Of a stretch of DNA of 43,474 nucleotides, positions 21,847 to 31,228 are shown piece by piece; the stretch's first letter is position 1; each line of letters starts with the position of its first letter. Source of the DNA: a virus. The position numbers and the translations under genes were made by a program. Below the pieces are notes generated by a model. It had not been told where the DNA came from. It made no database searches and was given only the letters and a program-made list of their open reading frames with translations. Location of the stretch: IMG/VR virus record IMGVR_UViG_3300042448_000896, positions 1 to 43,474 of that record. The stretch is one strand, 5' to 3'.

Positions 21847-23391
21847 TTATGGGCCGAAGCGCGCCTGAGCTTTCTTGTATTGTGGAGCTTCTTTGCTTCC
21901 ACGTGAAACTAGGAATACTTGAACTGCTGCCATATTAGATGCTTTATATGGTTCAGGATTTAATGCAAAGATATCAACCTTTTTATATGTTAGCTCCTGA
22001 TTTCCAGTATCATGAACCGTGTATACGCCACTTGGATTTTTACCACTTGGGTTGTATGGAGTACCATCTGGATTCTTAAGAGCAAGTACGCTACCAATTG
22101 GAACACGCGTACTTGCACATGAAAAACCATCAATCAATCTATCACTAAACGGTCCTTTAAACGCATCTTCATAATCGAGAGTGCCAATCCTGAAAGACTT
22201 TCCTTTGCTATTTGTATATGTATTACCAGAAGGTATTTTATAGCCTCGGGATTGCCAATATGCTGTTAATTCCGGCGGGCGCTGTGAAGGTTTAATGTCT
22301 AAGAATGTCGTGTAGTCAGTATTTGGCCCGCCATACACCGTTACACCAGTTGAAAGCATTGAGCCTGTCACTGGTCCGATTTGATTGCGCATTGCATACG
22401 CGCGAACAATGTCACCTGAACGGCCAAGCGATATTCCGATATTATTACATCTGTTATTATAATCGGTTTTGATTTCTTCATTCCATTGAAGATTATGAGT
22501 ATTCAATTCAATACCAACACTCGTCTTAAATTCAGAAGCAAATCGCGCATCATCGGCATTTGACTTCGACTTCATTAACTTATCATGATATGCAAGAGCA
22601 ATTGTATTTACCGATGTTATCATTGAAACATATGAAGAGTCGCCTGTCTTTGATGTATCCTTGCCGGTGTAATTCTTGATTTCGAACATTAAACCATCAT
22701 AATCATTCTTAGCTGTTATTACTTGAGTATTAACAGTTGCACCCGGATGTGTTGGCGGTGACGCCATCGGGATAATTGCCGGTGAAGATATCCCATTGCT
22801 GAGAATCGCACCATTTGCAGTATAGTTTGGCGCGGAACAAATATCAAGAACATCAAGATTGTTAATCATATCTGTTATATTATTCACCGCCCCTCCAAAT
22901 TTAGTTAAAATTTCCTGAACCTTTTTGACCTTCGCTAATCCTTGTAAACCTTTTGCGATTGCTATTTCTGTGAGAAGATCTCTTTCCTTAATGAGCTTGG
23001 CAACATTAATGACTTCTTGTAATGTGCTAGCATATGCTTGAACTTGGCCGAGTTTCGAAACTACATCTTTTGCGGTTGAATTATTTGTAAGTAATTCCAT
23101 TGCCTTTTCTTGAGCTTTAGCCATAATGCGATCCTCAAGATTCATTACACAATCGAACAAATTTGCGGCTGGCTCCAAGTTAAGCGCTAAATTCGCTTTA
23201 ACCATGACAGCACTAATGTTAGTCATGCTGTCAACAGTCATTGCTGTATTAGCATTCGAAACATTCAATAAGTTTGCTGGATCTGCTAACGTGCCAACTA
23301 AAGATATTCCCGTTGGATCGGATGATAACTTTGATTTATTAAACGTGTTTTTAACTGATTCTGTCAGCGAAGATAGTTGGGTGTTTGCCAT
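21847..23391 (-). CDS. Baseplate hub-region protein with C-terminal 3D domain
   Basis: A 514-residue protein between the spike gene and gp25. The N-terminal ~200 residues are mostly helical with repeated hydrophobic faces (IMAKAQEKAMELL, KLIKERDLLTEIAIAKGLQGLAKV). The C-terminal ~110 residues form a 3D (three-aspartate) double-psi beta-barrel: FSCASTRVPIGSVLAL, YTVHDTGN and KVDIFA fit the family, which includes lytic transglycosylases related to MltA and cell-wall resuscitation factors. I infer a virion-associated, murein-directed domain at the tail tip. A purely structural use of the barrel cannot be excluded. Confidence 0.7.
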   Translation of the reverse strand: MANTQLSSLTESVKNTFNKSKLSSDPTGISLVGTLADPANLLNVSNANTAMTVDSMTNISAVMVKANLALNLEPAANLFDCVMNLEDRIMAKAQEKAMELLTNNSTAKDVVSKLGQVQAYASTLQEVINVAKLIKERDLLTEIAIAKGLQGLAKVKKVQEILTKFGGAVNNITDMINNLDVLDICSAPNYTANGAILSNGISSPAIIPMASPPTHPGATVNTQVITAKNDYDGLMFEIKNYTGKDTSKTGDSSYVSMITSVNTIALAYHDKLMKSKSNADDARFASEFKTSVGIELNTHNLQWNEEIKTDYNNRCNNIGISLGRSGDIVRAYAMRNQIGPVTGSMLSTGVTVYGGPNTDYTTFLDIKPSQRPPELTAYWQSRGYKIPSGNTYTNSKGKSFRIGTLDYEDAFKGPFSDRLIDGFSCASTRVPIGSVLALKNPDGTPYNPSGKNPSGVYTVHDTGNQELTYKKVDIFALNPEPYKASNMAAVQVFLVSRGSKEAPQYKKAQARFGP

Positions 23392-28710: not shown

Positions 28711-28718
28711 TATTTATA
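28711..28718 (-). promoter_or_regulatory. T4-type late promoter box (TATAAATA), minus strand
   Basis: A perfect TATAAATA on the minus strand that overlaps the first base of the gp4 ATG. It lies 16 bases before the gp48 ATG at 28694 and should drive the whole baseplate operon. Confidence 0.8.
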
Positions 28719-29161
28719 TGGCGTACCGCGGAACATATCGAGTCAAGAACCCAGGTAAGTATGATGGCGATCATACAAAGGTTACCTATCGCTCGCTTTG
28801 GGAACGACAAGTGTTCCGTTGGCTAGACGAGAATGATAACGTCAAAAAGTGGAACAGCGAAGAAACAATCATACCTTATCGTTGCAAGACAGATAACAAA
28901 ATCCATCGTTACTTTGTTGATCTAAAGGTTACATTCAAGACAGGGCAGACCTACTTCATTGAGATCAAACCTGAAAAGGAAACAAAAGAACCTCGCCCAC
29001 GTAGTCGCAAAACACCAGCTTACATAAAGGAGGTTATGACATACGTCAAGAATATCTCAAAGTGGGAAGCTGCAACTGAATATGCAAAGGATCGTAACTG
29101 CATCTTCGAGGTGTGGACCGAAAAGACTATCAAGTCGCTTGGAATTAAGCTGTTGACATGA
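28718..29161 (+). CDS. 4: Head completion protein gp4
   Basis: A 147-residue protein (T4 gp4 is 150). The sequence GTYRVKNPGKYDGD, YRSLWERQVFRWLDEN and YFVDLKVTFKTGQTYFIEIKPEKE is characteristic. The fold is nuclease-like, with the D..IEIKP strand typical of PD-(D/E)XK enzymes such as TnsA. In T4 the protein is needed to finish filled heads before tail joining. In T4 gene 4 lies next to gene 53 on the same strand; here it is divergent from gp48/gp53, with 23 bases between the ATGs. Confidence 0.92.
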   Translation: MAYRGTYRVKNPGKYDGDHTKVTYRSLWERQVFRWLDENDNVKKWNSEETIIPYRCKTDNKIHRYFVDLKVTFKTGQTYFIEIKPEKETKEPRPRSRKTPAYIKEVMTYVKNISKWEAATEYAKDRNCIFEVWTEKTIKSLGIKLLT

Positions 29162-29179: not shown

Positions 29180-29767
29180 ATGGCTTCTATATTTGCTAAG
29201 ATCCAAGATCGTGCTGAGCGCGCTGGAATAGTACCATACACTGAAAAGTCTCGTAAGTGGTTTACTCAGAGACTACGTAAGATGTCAAATGTCGGCTCAC
29301 AACGAGTATTGACAGATGATAGATTGACACGTCGCAAGAAGCCTTTAATTGGTCGCATGTTTATGTTCCTGTATGATCCAAAAGGAAAGGATACATTACC
29401 ATACTATGACCGCTTTCCTTTAATCCTTATGGTGGGTCCAGCTGAAAATGGGTTCTATGGACTTAACCTACATTACCTTTCGCCACGTGCACGCGCAGTT
29501 TTCTTTGATGAACTGCAGTCGTTTCTCAACAATGACAAGATGGACGAGTCGACTCGATTTCGTTTAGCATATAGTACGCTATCACGCGTGAGTAAGCTAC
29601 GAGCTTTTGCTCCTTGCTTTAAACACTACCTCTACTCACATGTGGTAAGTCATACTGTAGAGATTCCTCCATCCGAATGGGAGATTGCATTATTCATGCC
29701 AACTGAAGATTTTGTTGGTGCAAAGAATCGCAGCGTTTGGAATACTTCTAAAAATTTAGCATTATAA
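29180..29767 (+). CDS. Conserved T4-like virion/assembly protein of unknown role
   Basis: A 195-residue basic protein. Its motifs are SRKWFTQRLRKM, RMFMFLYDPKGKDTLPYYDRFPLILM, FYGLNLHYLSPRAR, CFKHYLYSHV and EWEIALFMPTEDF. I recognise this pattern as recurring in T4-like marine phages beside gp4 and the tube/hub genes, but I know of no assigned function. The high Arg/Lys content of the N-terminus would fit nucleic-acid or internal virion contacts. It has its own late box and is followed one base after its stop by the tube-like gene, through a TAATATG junction. Confidence 0.75.
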   Translation: MASIFAKIQDRAERAGIVPYTEKSRKWFTQRLRKMSNVGSQRVLTDDRLTRRKKPLIGRMFMFLYDPKGKDTLPYYDRFPLILMVGPAENGFYGLNLHYLSPRARAVFFDELQSFLNNDKMDESTRFRLAYSTLSRVSKLRAFAPCFKHYLYSHVVSHTVEIPPSEWEIALFMPTEDFVGAKNRSVWNTSKNLAL

Positions 29768-29768
29768 T

Positions 29769-30320
29769 ATGGCAACAATCAACGACATAAAAGGAGTAAT
29801 TAGTAAACGCGGCGGATTAGCACGGCCTAACCGATTCAAAGTCGACTTCACTGGACTACTAGCAGGTCCTGTGACCATACCAGGTTTAGACGTAAGCACA
29901 ATTAAAGATTTAAACTTCTTAGTTGATAACATCAGTATTCCAGGCCGAGCCATCAATACGTTTGAGTATGCAATTTGGAATCATTCAATTAAGGTTCCAA
30001 TTGGTTATGATGAAGATGATATCGAAATCGTGTTTAACTTAACAAACGATTTCATGCCAAAGAAGATCATTGATGCATGGTCTGCAATCATTATCAACCA
30101 AAGCAGTTACCTAGCTGAATATGATGAAGCATATAAAAGAGACATCATCATTTGGCAGCTTGATGAAAATGACAACATTAAGTATGGAGTAAAACTGCTG
30201 GGAGCATATCCACTTGCGTCCAAAGGATTGTTCTTAGACAACAGTGCCGAATCAGCAATATCTCGTTTCAGTTGCACTCTAACCTTTAATCGCTTTCAAG
30301 TTGAGCCAATTCCAAATTAA
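29769..30320 (+). CDS. Tail tube-fold protein (gp19/gp54 family)
   Basis: A 183-residue protein of the gp19 tube fold. Segments such as ARPNRFKVDFTG, FLVDNISIPGRAINTFEY and VPIGYDEDDIEIVFNLTNDFMPKKIIDAWSA are diagnostic, and the C-terminus (SRFSCTLTFNRFQVEPI) is the closing strand. Length is near T4 gp19 (163 residues) and far shorter than gp54 (320). Its position next to gp26 and the tape measure, away from a sheath gene, suggests it could instead be a baseplate-tube initiator (gp54-like) or a second tube protein. Family call is strong, exact role open. Confidence 0.8.
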   Translation: MATINDIKGVISKRGGLARPNRFKVDFTGLLAGPVTIPGLDVSTIKDLNFLVDNISIPGRAINTFEYAIWNHSIKVPIGYDEDDIEIVFNLTNDFMPKKIIDAWSAIIINQSSYLAEYDEAYKRDIIIWQLDENDNIKYGVKLLGAYPLASKGLFLDNSAESAISRFSCTLTFNRFQVEPIPN

Positions 30321-30335: not shown

Positions 30336-31043
30336 ATGAGTTTACCAATTATTGCATCTCCTAAGTACACCATTGAAATTCCTTCAACTGGTACAGCCGC
30401 CGAATATCGCCCATTCTTAGTTAAAGAAGAAAAGGTATTGCTTATTGCTCAAGAAAGTCAAGACCAAGGGCAAATTATGAATGCCATTAAAGATGTCATT
30501 CGTGCGTGTACATACAATAAAGTCGATGTTGATAATCTTACATCGTATGATCTTGAATACCTTTTCATTAAGTTACGCTCAAAGAGTGTTGGTGAAATTT
30601 CAACGGTTGGACTTAAATGTACAGAATGTGATTCTCAAAACGAGATTGACATTAATCTTGATGAAATCAAAGTTATGGGTTCAGCTCCAGATGGTCGCGT
30701 TCAACTTACCGATACTGTTGGAGTAAACATGAAACCGATGAGTGTCAAGGACATGAGTAAAATTGCATCTAAGAAGGACATGTCAACTGCTGATCAAATG
30801 ACTGAATCTGTTATTGCATGTATTGATAGCATCTATGATGAAAACAAAGTTTATCCAAAAACAAGTTACAGTCGATCTGATATGGAGACCTTTGTTAATT
30901 CTCTAGCGCGTTTACAGATGCAAAAGATTGAGGCATTCATCACTAACCTTCCAAAGGTTGAACATACAATCAAATTCAAATGCAGCAAATGTTCATGTGA
31001 AAATGAACAGTCTCTTAGCGGCATAAGATCTTTTTTCTCATAA
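30336..31043 (+). CDS. 26: Baseplate hub assembly protein gp26
   Basis: A 235-residue protein of the T4 baseplate gp26 family (T4 gp26 is 208). Segments include RPFLVKEEKVLLIAQES, LTSYDLEYLFIKLRSKSVGE and a C-terminal VEHTIKFKCSKC. Two CxxC pairs, C95-x2-C98 and C216-x2-C219, should bind one zinc as a ribbon. The family is needed to assemble the tail hub and, by genomic position before the tape measure, is the likely equivalent of lambda G. The final codons contain a T-TTT-TTC slippery heptamer at 31031-31037, four bases before the stop codon. Frameshifting there would give a 297-residue gp26-gp51 fusion. Confidence 0.88.
   Translation: MSLPIIASPKYTIEIPSTGTAAEYRPFLVKEEKVLLIAQESQDQGQIMNAIKDVIRACTYNKVDVDNLTSYDLEYLFIKLRSKSVGEISTVGLKCTECDSQNEIDINLDEIKVMGSAPDGRVQLTDTVGVNMKPMSVKDMSKIASKKDMSTADQMTESVIACIDSIYDENKVYPKTSYSRSDMETFVNSLARLQMQKIEAFITNLPKVEHTIKFKCSKCSCENEQSLSGIRSFFS
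31031..31037 (+). promoter_or_regulatory. -1 ribosomal frameshift slippery heptamer (TTTTTTC)
   Basis: In the gp26 frame the bases read T TTT TTC (X XXY YYZ). Both tRNAs can re-pair one base upstream with at most one wobble change. The next -1 codon (31037-31039) opens a frame that runs to 31228. The gp26 stop TAA follows at 31041. Confidence 0.75.
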
Positions 31044-31228
31044 GTCTCTCCCATGAGTCATTGGTTAATCTGTACAAGACTAACTTTGCACTTATGTATC
31101 ATCATAAGTATAGCATATCAGAAATTGAAGATATGCTACCATGGGAGAGAGAAATTTACATTTCGTTATTAGCTGACCAAATTAAGAAAGAAAACCAAGA
31201 ACGAAATAACAAACAAAACCACCTTTAA
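31037..31228 (+). CDS. gp51-like tail assembly chaperone domain, made by -1 frameshift from gp26
   Basis: A 63-codon frame, -1 relative to gp26, reading SHESLVNLYKTNFALMYHH, then KYSISEIEDMLPWEREIY, then LLADQIKKENQERN. It looks like the second domain of tail assembly chaperones: a helix, 'HHKYSxxEIExMxPWERE', and a charged helical end. It corresponds in position to T4 gene 51, which follows gene 26. There is no ATG or GTG before residue 20 of the frame; the first ATG lies inside the conserved part, and the only early alternative is a TTG at 31061 without a ribosome-binding site. It is therefore best explained as the tail of a gp26 fusion (234 + 63 residues). The tape measure starts 3 bases after its stop. 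Confidence 0.75.
   Translation, partial: LISLSHESLVNLYKTNFALMYHHKYSISEIEDMLPWEREIYISLLADQIKKENQERNNKQNHL
31045..31150 (+). promoter_or_regulatory. Long-range 11-bp RNA stem downstream of the slippery site
   Basis: Bases 31045-31055 (TCTCTCCCATG) are perfectly complementary to 31140-31150 (CATGGGAGAGA), enclosing 84 bases. The first arm starts 7 bases after the slippery heptamer, the usual spacer length for -1 frameshift stimulators. A competing 5-bp local hairpin (31037-31041 with 31053-31057) is also possible. Confidence 0.6.

Follow-up and report, generated by a model that had tools for sequence, protein, structure and literature searches.

A putative −1 frameshift joining gp26 to a gp51-like domain in an uncultured T4-like virus

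The window, by which we mean the whole stretch of DNA analysed here, is the 43,474-base IMG/VR virus record IMGVR_UViG_3300042448_000896 of an uncultured T4-like virus, in which the tail tube protein, gp26, a gp51-like domain and the tail tape measure protein are encoded one after the other (Table 1), the position typical of tail assembly chaperones of the lambda G/GT kind. The gp51-like domain occupies the −1 frame relative to gp26, opening at the last base of a slippery heptamer that lies just ahead of the gp26 stop. This frame translates as LISLSHESLVNLYKTNFALMYHHKYSISEIEDMLPWEREIY..., runs for 63 residues, and its stop is followed three bases later by the tape measure ORF. No ATG or GTG stands ahead of its conserved part, its first start codons being TTG at 31061 and ATG at 31094, and a motif scan detected no Shine-Dalgarno-like motif before either. 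Joined at the heptamer, the two frames would give a fusion of 297 aa whose two parts meet after residue 234.

A sequence-only reading of this DNA had proposed a programmed −1 frameshift from these same elements. The heptamer in the gp26 frame near its stop, the 63-codon −1 frame with no ATG or GTG before its conserved part and the tape measure gene three bases beyond it were all found where that reading had placed them, and its predicted products, a gp26 of 235 aa and a gp26-gp51 fusion of 297 aa, are supported at the level of sequence. Elsewhere in the window, a 514 aa ORF on the minus strand amid the baseplate genes (21847-23391) matches no PHROG at E 0.001.

Table 1. Features of the tail gene region of the window (positions count from its first base).
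Feature	Position	Strand	Match or source
Head closure gene	28718-29161	+	
DNA end protector	29180-29767	+	
Tail tube protein, 183 aa, just 5' of gp26	29769-30320	+	phrog_45 (E 2.9e-27), phrog_3629 (E 3.1e-27)
gp26, short chaperone form (TAC-N), 235 aa	30336-31043	+	PF12322, phrog_150
Slippery heptamer T TTT TTC, gp26 frame	31031-31037	+	Read from sequence
−1 frame, gp51-like C-terminal domain (TAC-C), 63 residues and stop	31037-31228	+	phrog_634
gp26 stop codon TAA, 3 bases 3' of the heptamer	31041-31043	+	
Tail tape measure protein, 716 aa	31232-33382	+	phrog_4372 (E 5.7e-9)

Both frames belong to recognised T4-type families. gp26, whose sequence holds two CxxC motifs, matches PF12322 (T4_baseplate) with 200 bits, against a cut-off of 24.5, over positions 2-218 of the 219-position profile, and phrog_150 at E 2.1e-61 over profile positions 5-232. 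The gp51-like identity claimed for the −1 domain is borne out by its homology to phrog_634 (E 1.3e-24, residues 3-61 on profile positions 59-117 of 121), a family whose label, baseplate hub assembly catalyst, is what gp51 is usually called. The −1 frame also matches phrog_150 at positions 236-281 (E 1e-6), so that gp26 and the −1 frame fall on successive parts of phrog_150 and are already united in one public family. In pairwise profile comparisons, as distinct from database searches, the −1 domain matched the C-terminus of T4-type gp51 at E 6.6e-12, and the gp26 alignment (A3) matched T4-type gp51 (A4, 5 sequences) at E 2.5e-10, in a match spanning the N-terminal 200 residues.

An AlphaFold model of gp26 built with 71 sequences (mean pLDDT 94.1) weakly resembles the HK97 tail assembly chaperone. 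In VIA-align, the model matched 3fgx with Z 7.9 and the HK97 chaperone 2ob9 with Z 7.1 over 83 residues, values that, being under 8, fall below the level the tool treats as safe and are not proof; both matches cover the first ~85-95 residues of gp26, and the next row stands at Z 4.6. Foldseek against the PDB returned nothing at E 0.001 or better, with 2ob9 at E 0.39. Sequence matches to solved structures were taken as chance both for gp26 (best E 0.2) and for the −1 domain (E 0.022, to designed or natural HIV gp41 helices). This resemblance, together with the gene order, supports a possible chaperone role for gp26, and "baseplate hub" is probably a label carried over from older usage. In a 2010 review, T4 gp26 and gp51 are listed as hub assembly chaperones, and genetic work placing gp26 in the hub is also cited (PMC3004832).

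Conservation was followed in two sets of IMG/VR loci. Set 1 comprises the window and the best 80 of 598 confirmed gp26 relatives (81 loci), and set 2 the best 80 of 597 confirmed relatives found by searching with the −1 domain (alignment A2, 36 sequences); sharing 7 contigs, the sets hold 153 contigs besides the window, and farther relatives lie outside both counts. The loci are partly non-independent, set 1 forming 72 clusters at 90% identity and set 2 comprising 79 distinct segments. TTTTTT followed by C, T or A lies in the gp26 frame at all 81 loci of set 1 (55 C, 23 T, 3 A), where the −1 frame is open for 58-69 codons in every case and the gp26 stop comes 0, 3 or 9 bases past the heptamer in 18, 58 and 5 loci, respectively. 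All 80 loci of set 2 likewise carry the heptamer in register (37 C, 32 T, 10 A, 1 G), with a gp26-frame stop 0-3 bases past it in 73 and 24-27 bases past it in 7, and one locus has only 51 open codons upstream. A conserved heptamer near the 3' end followed by a conserved −1 frame, the arrangement expected of frameshifted chaperone genes, is therefore found in 81/81 and 80/80 loci, and in 60 of the 72 set 1 representatives the −1 stop has the beginning of a long ORF close by.

Two controls bear on whether a run of T's is simply what two phenylalanines look like in these genomes. At other Phe-Phe dipeptides of the set 1 loci the heptamer pattern occurs in 14 of 220 cases; these were taken from mechanically called ORFs of at least 120 aa, some of which may be spurious, and we therefore give greater weight to a control within gp26 itself. 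There, the first slip Phe is TTT in 71/71 representatives (71 of 72, L074 being left out of alignment A3), against 34/71, 32/66, 45/68 and 32/56 (48-66%) at four other conserved Phe columns. By these counts, conservation of the heptamer exceeds chance.

The T run could also act through RNA polymerase, which might slip on it and yield an edited mRNA pool encoding the fusion, and at least six T's are present at all 81 loci of set 1 (most often six, at 57 loci, with seven at 17, eight at 6 and nine at 1). In bacteria, transcriptional slippage occurs on runs of nine A or T (PMC5009743), whereas the run here is six long at most loci and is followed at 55 of 81 by a C, which suits re-pairing of tRNAs; moreover, the Shine-Dalgarno-like motif that many relatives carry upstream acts on ribosomes. 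Polymerase slippage thus appears extremely improbable. Still harder to credit is that a sequencing error or a recent frameshift mutation split a single gene: homopolymers are, as is generally known, common error sites, but the same architecture recurs in the 153 other contigs and in the records of the phages P-SSM2, S-SM2, HTVC008M, ACG-2014d and ACG-2014e.

The −1 domain evolves as a coding sequence. Its dN/dS is 0.30 over 163 overlapping pairs drawn from all 81 set 1 loci, and 0.40 for columns 0-17, the part before the commonest ATG. In close pairs (102 pairs), changes in codons 0-7, ahead of the window's TTG, number 157, 70 and 260 at the first, second and third codon positions, so an excess at third positions is present already at the very start of the domain. 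These substitution patterns indicate that the domain is under purifying selection, and, with heptamer and −1 frame retained together throughout both IMG/VR sets, they come out in favour of frameshifting in the conservation test that the sequence-only reading had proposed. Columns 3, 5 and 8 of the domain are conserved L, H and L. In set 1, no ATG, GTG or TTG occurs before column 3 in 75 of 81 loci, before column 8 in 57 and before column 17 in 35, and no ATG occurs before column 8 in 64; an ATG is found at column 19 in 59.

We also compared 26 phage records hand-picked for diversity, the T4 record (2,800 bases) standing outside the PF12322 count. PF12322 matched twice in six of them (phiAS4, CC_R7, phiKT1024, POP12, Rgz1 and avDM1), two of the six second matches barely passing the 24.5-bit cut-off (29.9 and 26.9 bits), and these same six carry a long gene of the fused kind; each of the remaining 20 gave a single match. 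A single-protein search with gp26 gave one match in the 43 kb of the window, a record that comes with no completeness figure. Fifteen of the 20 single-copy records have the heptamer in register, namely KVP40, D527, RHph_I46 (TTTTTTG), Mendera, Atu_ph07 and XG4, in each of which an ATG overlaps the gp26 stop, and P-SSM2, S-SM2, HTVC008M, Mosig, Melnitz, ACG-2014d, ACG-2014e, RaK2 and V45v66. An ATG precedes the conserved part in 8 of the 15, as judged by marker residues chosen by eye for each record. Among the marine T4-like records (L087-L093), gp51 is annotated from an internal ATG in P-SSM2, S-SM2, HTVC008M, Mosig and Melnitz, and the domain is unannotated in ACG-2014d and ACG-2014e, so that the predicted frameshift product is missing from those records.

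The in-register heptamer is absent from the remaining five single-copy records, K444, VAP7, 1.255.O, Se_AO1 and SP-15. In VAP7 (L095 2180-2405), 1.255.O (L104 2200-2417) and K444 (L105 2100-2324), an ATG overlapping the gp26 stop (TAATG) serves the C-terminal domain, which would consequently be a free protein there; given these and the six distant relatives that have the same overlap together with the heptamer, frameshifting would not be universal in the family. VAP7 and 1.255.O are Ackermannviridae, and K444 is listed only as Viruses. Salmonella phage Se_AO1 (L096 2280-2480) lacks both a T6 heptamer and an ATG, and the ATT it carries where VAP7 has ATG is possibly a non-standard start. Bacillus phage SP-15 (L098 2200-2450) has a T6 run at the end of gp26 with a plausible downstream domain in the other frame, possibly reached by a +1 or −2 shift or from an ATG inside gp26 after GAGG.

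The gp51-like domain of the window might instead be a separate small protein, made by reinitiation or from TTG 31061 or ATG 31094, the T run being just an AT-rich Phe-Phe. The stop-overlapping ATG of the nine phages so described, six with and three without the heptamer, is in keeping with such a start, as are the frequent ATG at column 19, the minority of loci free of starts before column 17 and the internal-ATG annotation of gp51 in public records. Against it, the conserved L, H and L lie at or before such starts, the TTG of the window stands where a conserved Leu (69/72 representatives) is written with various codons, neither start in the window has a Shine-Dalgarno-like motif by motif scan, and a TTT invariant at the first slip Phe is explained by neither protein nor base composition. 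We regard a separate start in the window as very unlikely. An ordinary start codon in relatives is what the sequence-only reading had named as counting against frameshifting; in set 1 starts before column 3 are rare, and several distant relatives have a stop-overlapping ATG.

Genes 26 and 51 of T4 are divergent neighbours. They are separate ORFs, as that reading had stated, but T4 gp51 is a full-length gp26 paralogue with an extra C-terminal domain rather than the domain alone. A profile of the predicted fusion crosses the junction near position 235 in one stretch in 7/7 long proteins compared (T4, phiAS4, Rgz1, avDM1, POP12, CC_R7 and phiKT1024), and in 4/4 short forms (T4, phiAS4, POP12 and phiKT1024) the match stops at profile position 232-237. 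Two-gene phages, having both a short and a long form, thus offer natural versions of both predicted products. Campylobacter phage CC_R7 (L086 937-1677) and Vibrio phage phiKT1024 (L102 964-1653) carry a full-length fused form and a second PF12322 match; neither is listed as Straboviridae, yet their two-gene state is like that of T4.

Upstream of the heptamer, a Shine-Dalgarno-like motif occurs at −16 to −9 in 56 of 72 set 1 clusters, whereas in-phase windows drawn from those ORFs predict 4.0, and in the same interval in 61 of 80 set 2 loci. With motifs and spacing taken from PMC4066793, the spacing rule being applied as we interpret it, the counts are 53 of 72 observed and 8.9 expected; the window itself is among the 19 of 72 with no such upstream motif. 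The commonest motif, present at 34 loci, is GAGG, spaced 11 nt from the second heptamer base, and where Glu-Gly occupies the motif site, Glu is GAG in 34 of 48 cases, compared with 41 of 240 Glu-Gly elsewhere. In many relatives, the motif therefore probably aids slippage.

Evidence for RNA structure is mixed. No consensus downstream structure (0 pairs) emerged from an alignment of 29 of the 81 loci, chosen for having the heptamer at the end of the reported match, which keeps offsets simple. The window folds better than synonymous-codon versions of itself (z −3.8 and −3.3, 30 samples) but no better than dinucleotide shuffles (z −1.27, 24/200 as stable). Across 72 loci, 60-nt windows have mean z of −0.9 to −1.1 under the synonymous-codon null, against −0.2 to −0.7 in gp26 controls, a mild effect at the family level. 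A downstream stimulator in the window was rejected as a candidate, its stems beginning ~25 and ~50 bases downstream, far for a stimulator, with the shuffles unsupportive. An Rfam search gave one match only, far below the gathering score.

Taken together, the sequence signals observed, how widely they are conserved, the selection on the −1 frame and the homology of both predicted products to two separate T4-type genes make it very probable that a single gene of this virus yields two tail assembly chaperones by −1 frameshifting; we infer from them that slippage occurs during infection, how often it does so and that the products act as chaperones. The majority of ribosomes would terminate at 31041 and release gp26 (TAC-N, 235 aa), while a minority would slip back one base on UUU UUC (31032-31037), both Phe tRNAs re-pairing with UUU UUU, and translate the −1 frame to 31228, producing TAC-NC, a fusion of 297 aa. 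If the pair works as gpG/gpGT does in lambda, binding of the tape measure protein encoded downstream would fall to the gp26 part, and recruitment of tail tube subunits to the C-terminal domain, present on a few of the subunits.

More broadly, and tentatively, T4-like and related phages may make this chaperone module in at least three ways: by slippage, from a stop-overlapping ATG that yields a free C-terminal domain, or by gene duplication, as in T4-type phages. As part of the same tentative reading, slippage in most marine relatives may be aided by the Shine-Dalgarno-like motif ~11 nt upstream. Were this so, covalent fusion of the two domains would not be essential everywhere, and the slip signal would include, in the motif, an element that has evolved and can be tuned.

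Vladimirov, Gautam and Davidson (Virology, 2022) reportedly found frameshifting to be conserved in several T4-like groups, T4 using genes 26 and 51. The genes of that study we take to be gp26 and gp51. Papers citing it state that TAC-N genes of T4-like phages have poly-T slip signals (PMC12846349) and that some T4-like phages do without frameshifting by carrying a short chaperone gene alongside a long, fused one (PMC10885494). The mechanism and its T4 variant are thus already published, the locus described here being a member. Earlier papers describe gp51 of marine vibriophage and cyanophage as being without the first ~200 residues (PMC3037559) and, in 2016, the G-T frameshift as widely conserved except in T4 (PMC5009743). 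The locus is not new in kind, and the frameshift idea is in print for T4-like phages; in the passages of this literature that were covered, with Vladimirov et al. 2022 represented by papers citing it, we found no report of an upstream Shine-Dalgarno-like motif in T4-like chaperone genes. The analysis assigns the uncultured T4-like virus of the window, along with 153 other contigs, to the branch of T4-like tail assembly that relies on frameshifting, and frameshifting would explain the internal-ATG or missing gp51 annotation in several marine phage records. The slip-signal statistics make the signal directly testable, with the Shine-Dalgarno-like motif as a candidate stimulator.

Among known systems, E. 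coli dnaX combines a homopolymeric heptamer with an upstream Shine-Dalgarno stimulator, as described in PMC5009743, and many relatives of the window share this combination. The dnaX heptamer is A AAA AAG, whereas the window has U UUU UUC with no Shine-Dalgarno-like motif, and we found no consensus downstream hairpin in an alignment of 29 of the 81 loci. The slip sequence of lambda also differs from that of the window; compared with the lambda proteins, gp26 is larger and has two CxxC motifs, its likeness to the chaperone fold is limited in the model to the first ~85-95 residues, and we claim no sequence similarity. Lambda gpG/gpGT likewise consists of a short chaperone and a −1 frameshifted long form, which bind the tape measure protein, according to PMC5009743. 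T4 gp26 is homologous to the window's gp26 over nearly its whole length, and the C-terminus of T4-type gp51 is homologous to the −1 domain, but in T4, unlike the window, the long form is a separate, divergently placed paralogous gene. Also close are the TAC-N/TAC-NC pairs of T4-like phages, which, as outlined in the citing papers, share with the window a poly-T slip signal in the TAC-N gene, and to which the present analysis adds an uncultured virus, 153 contigs, and codon-level and Shine-Dalgarno statistics.
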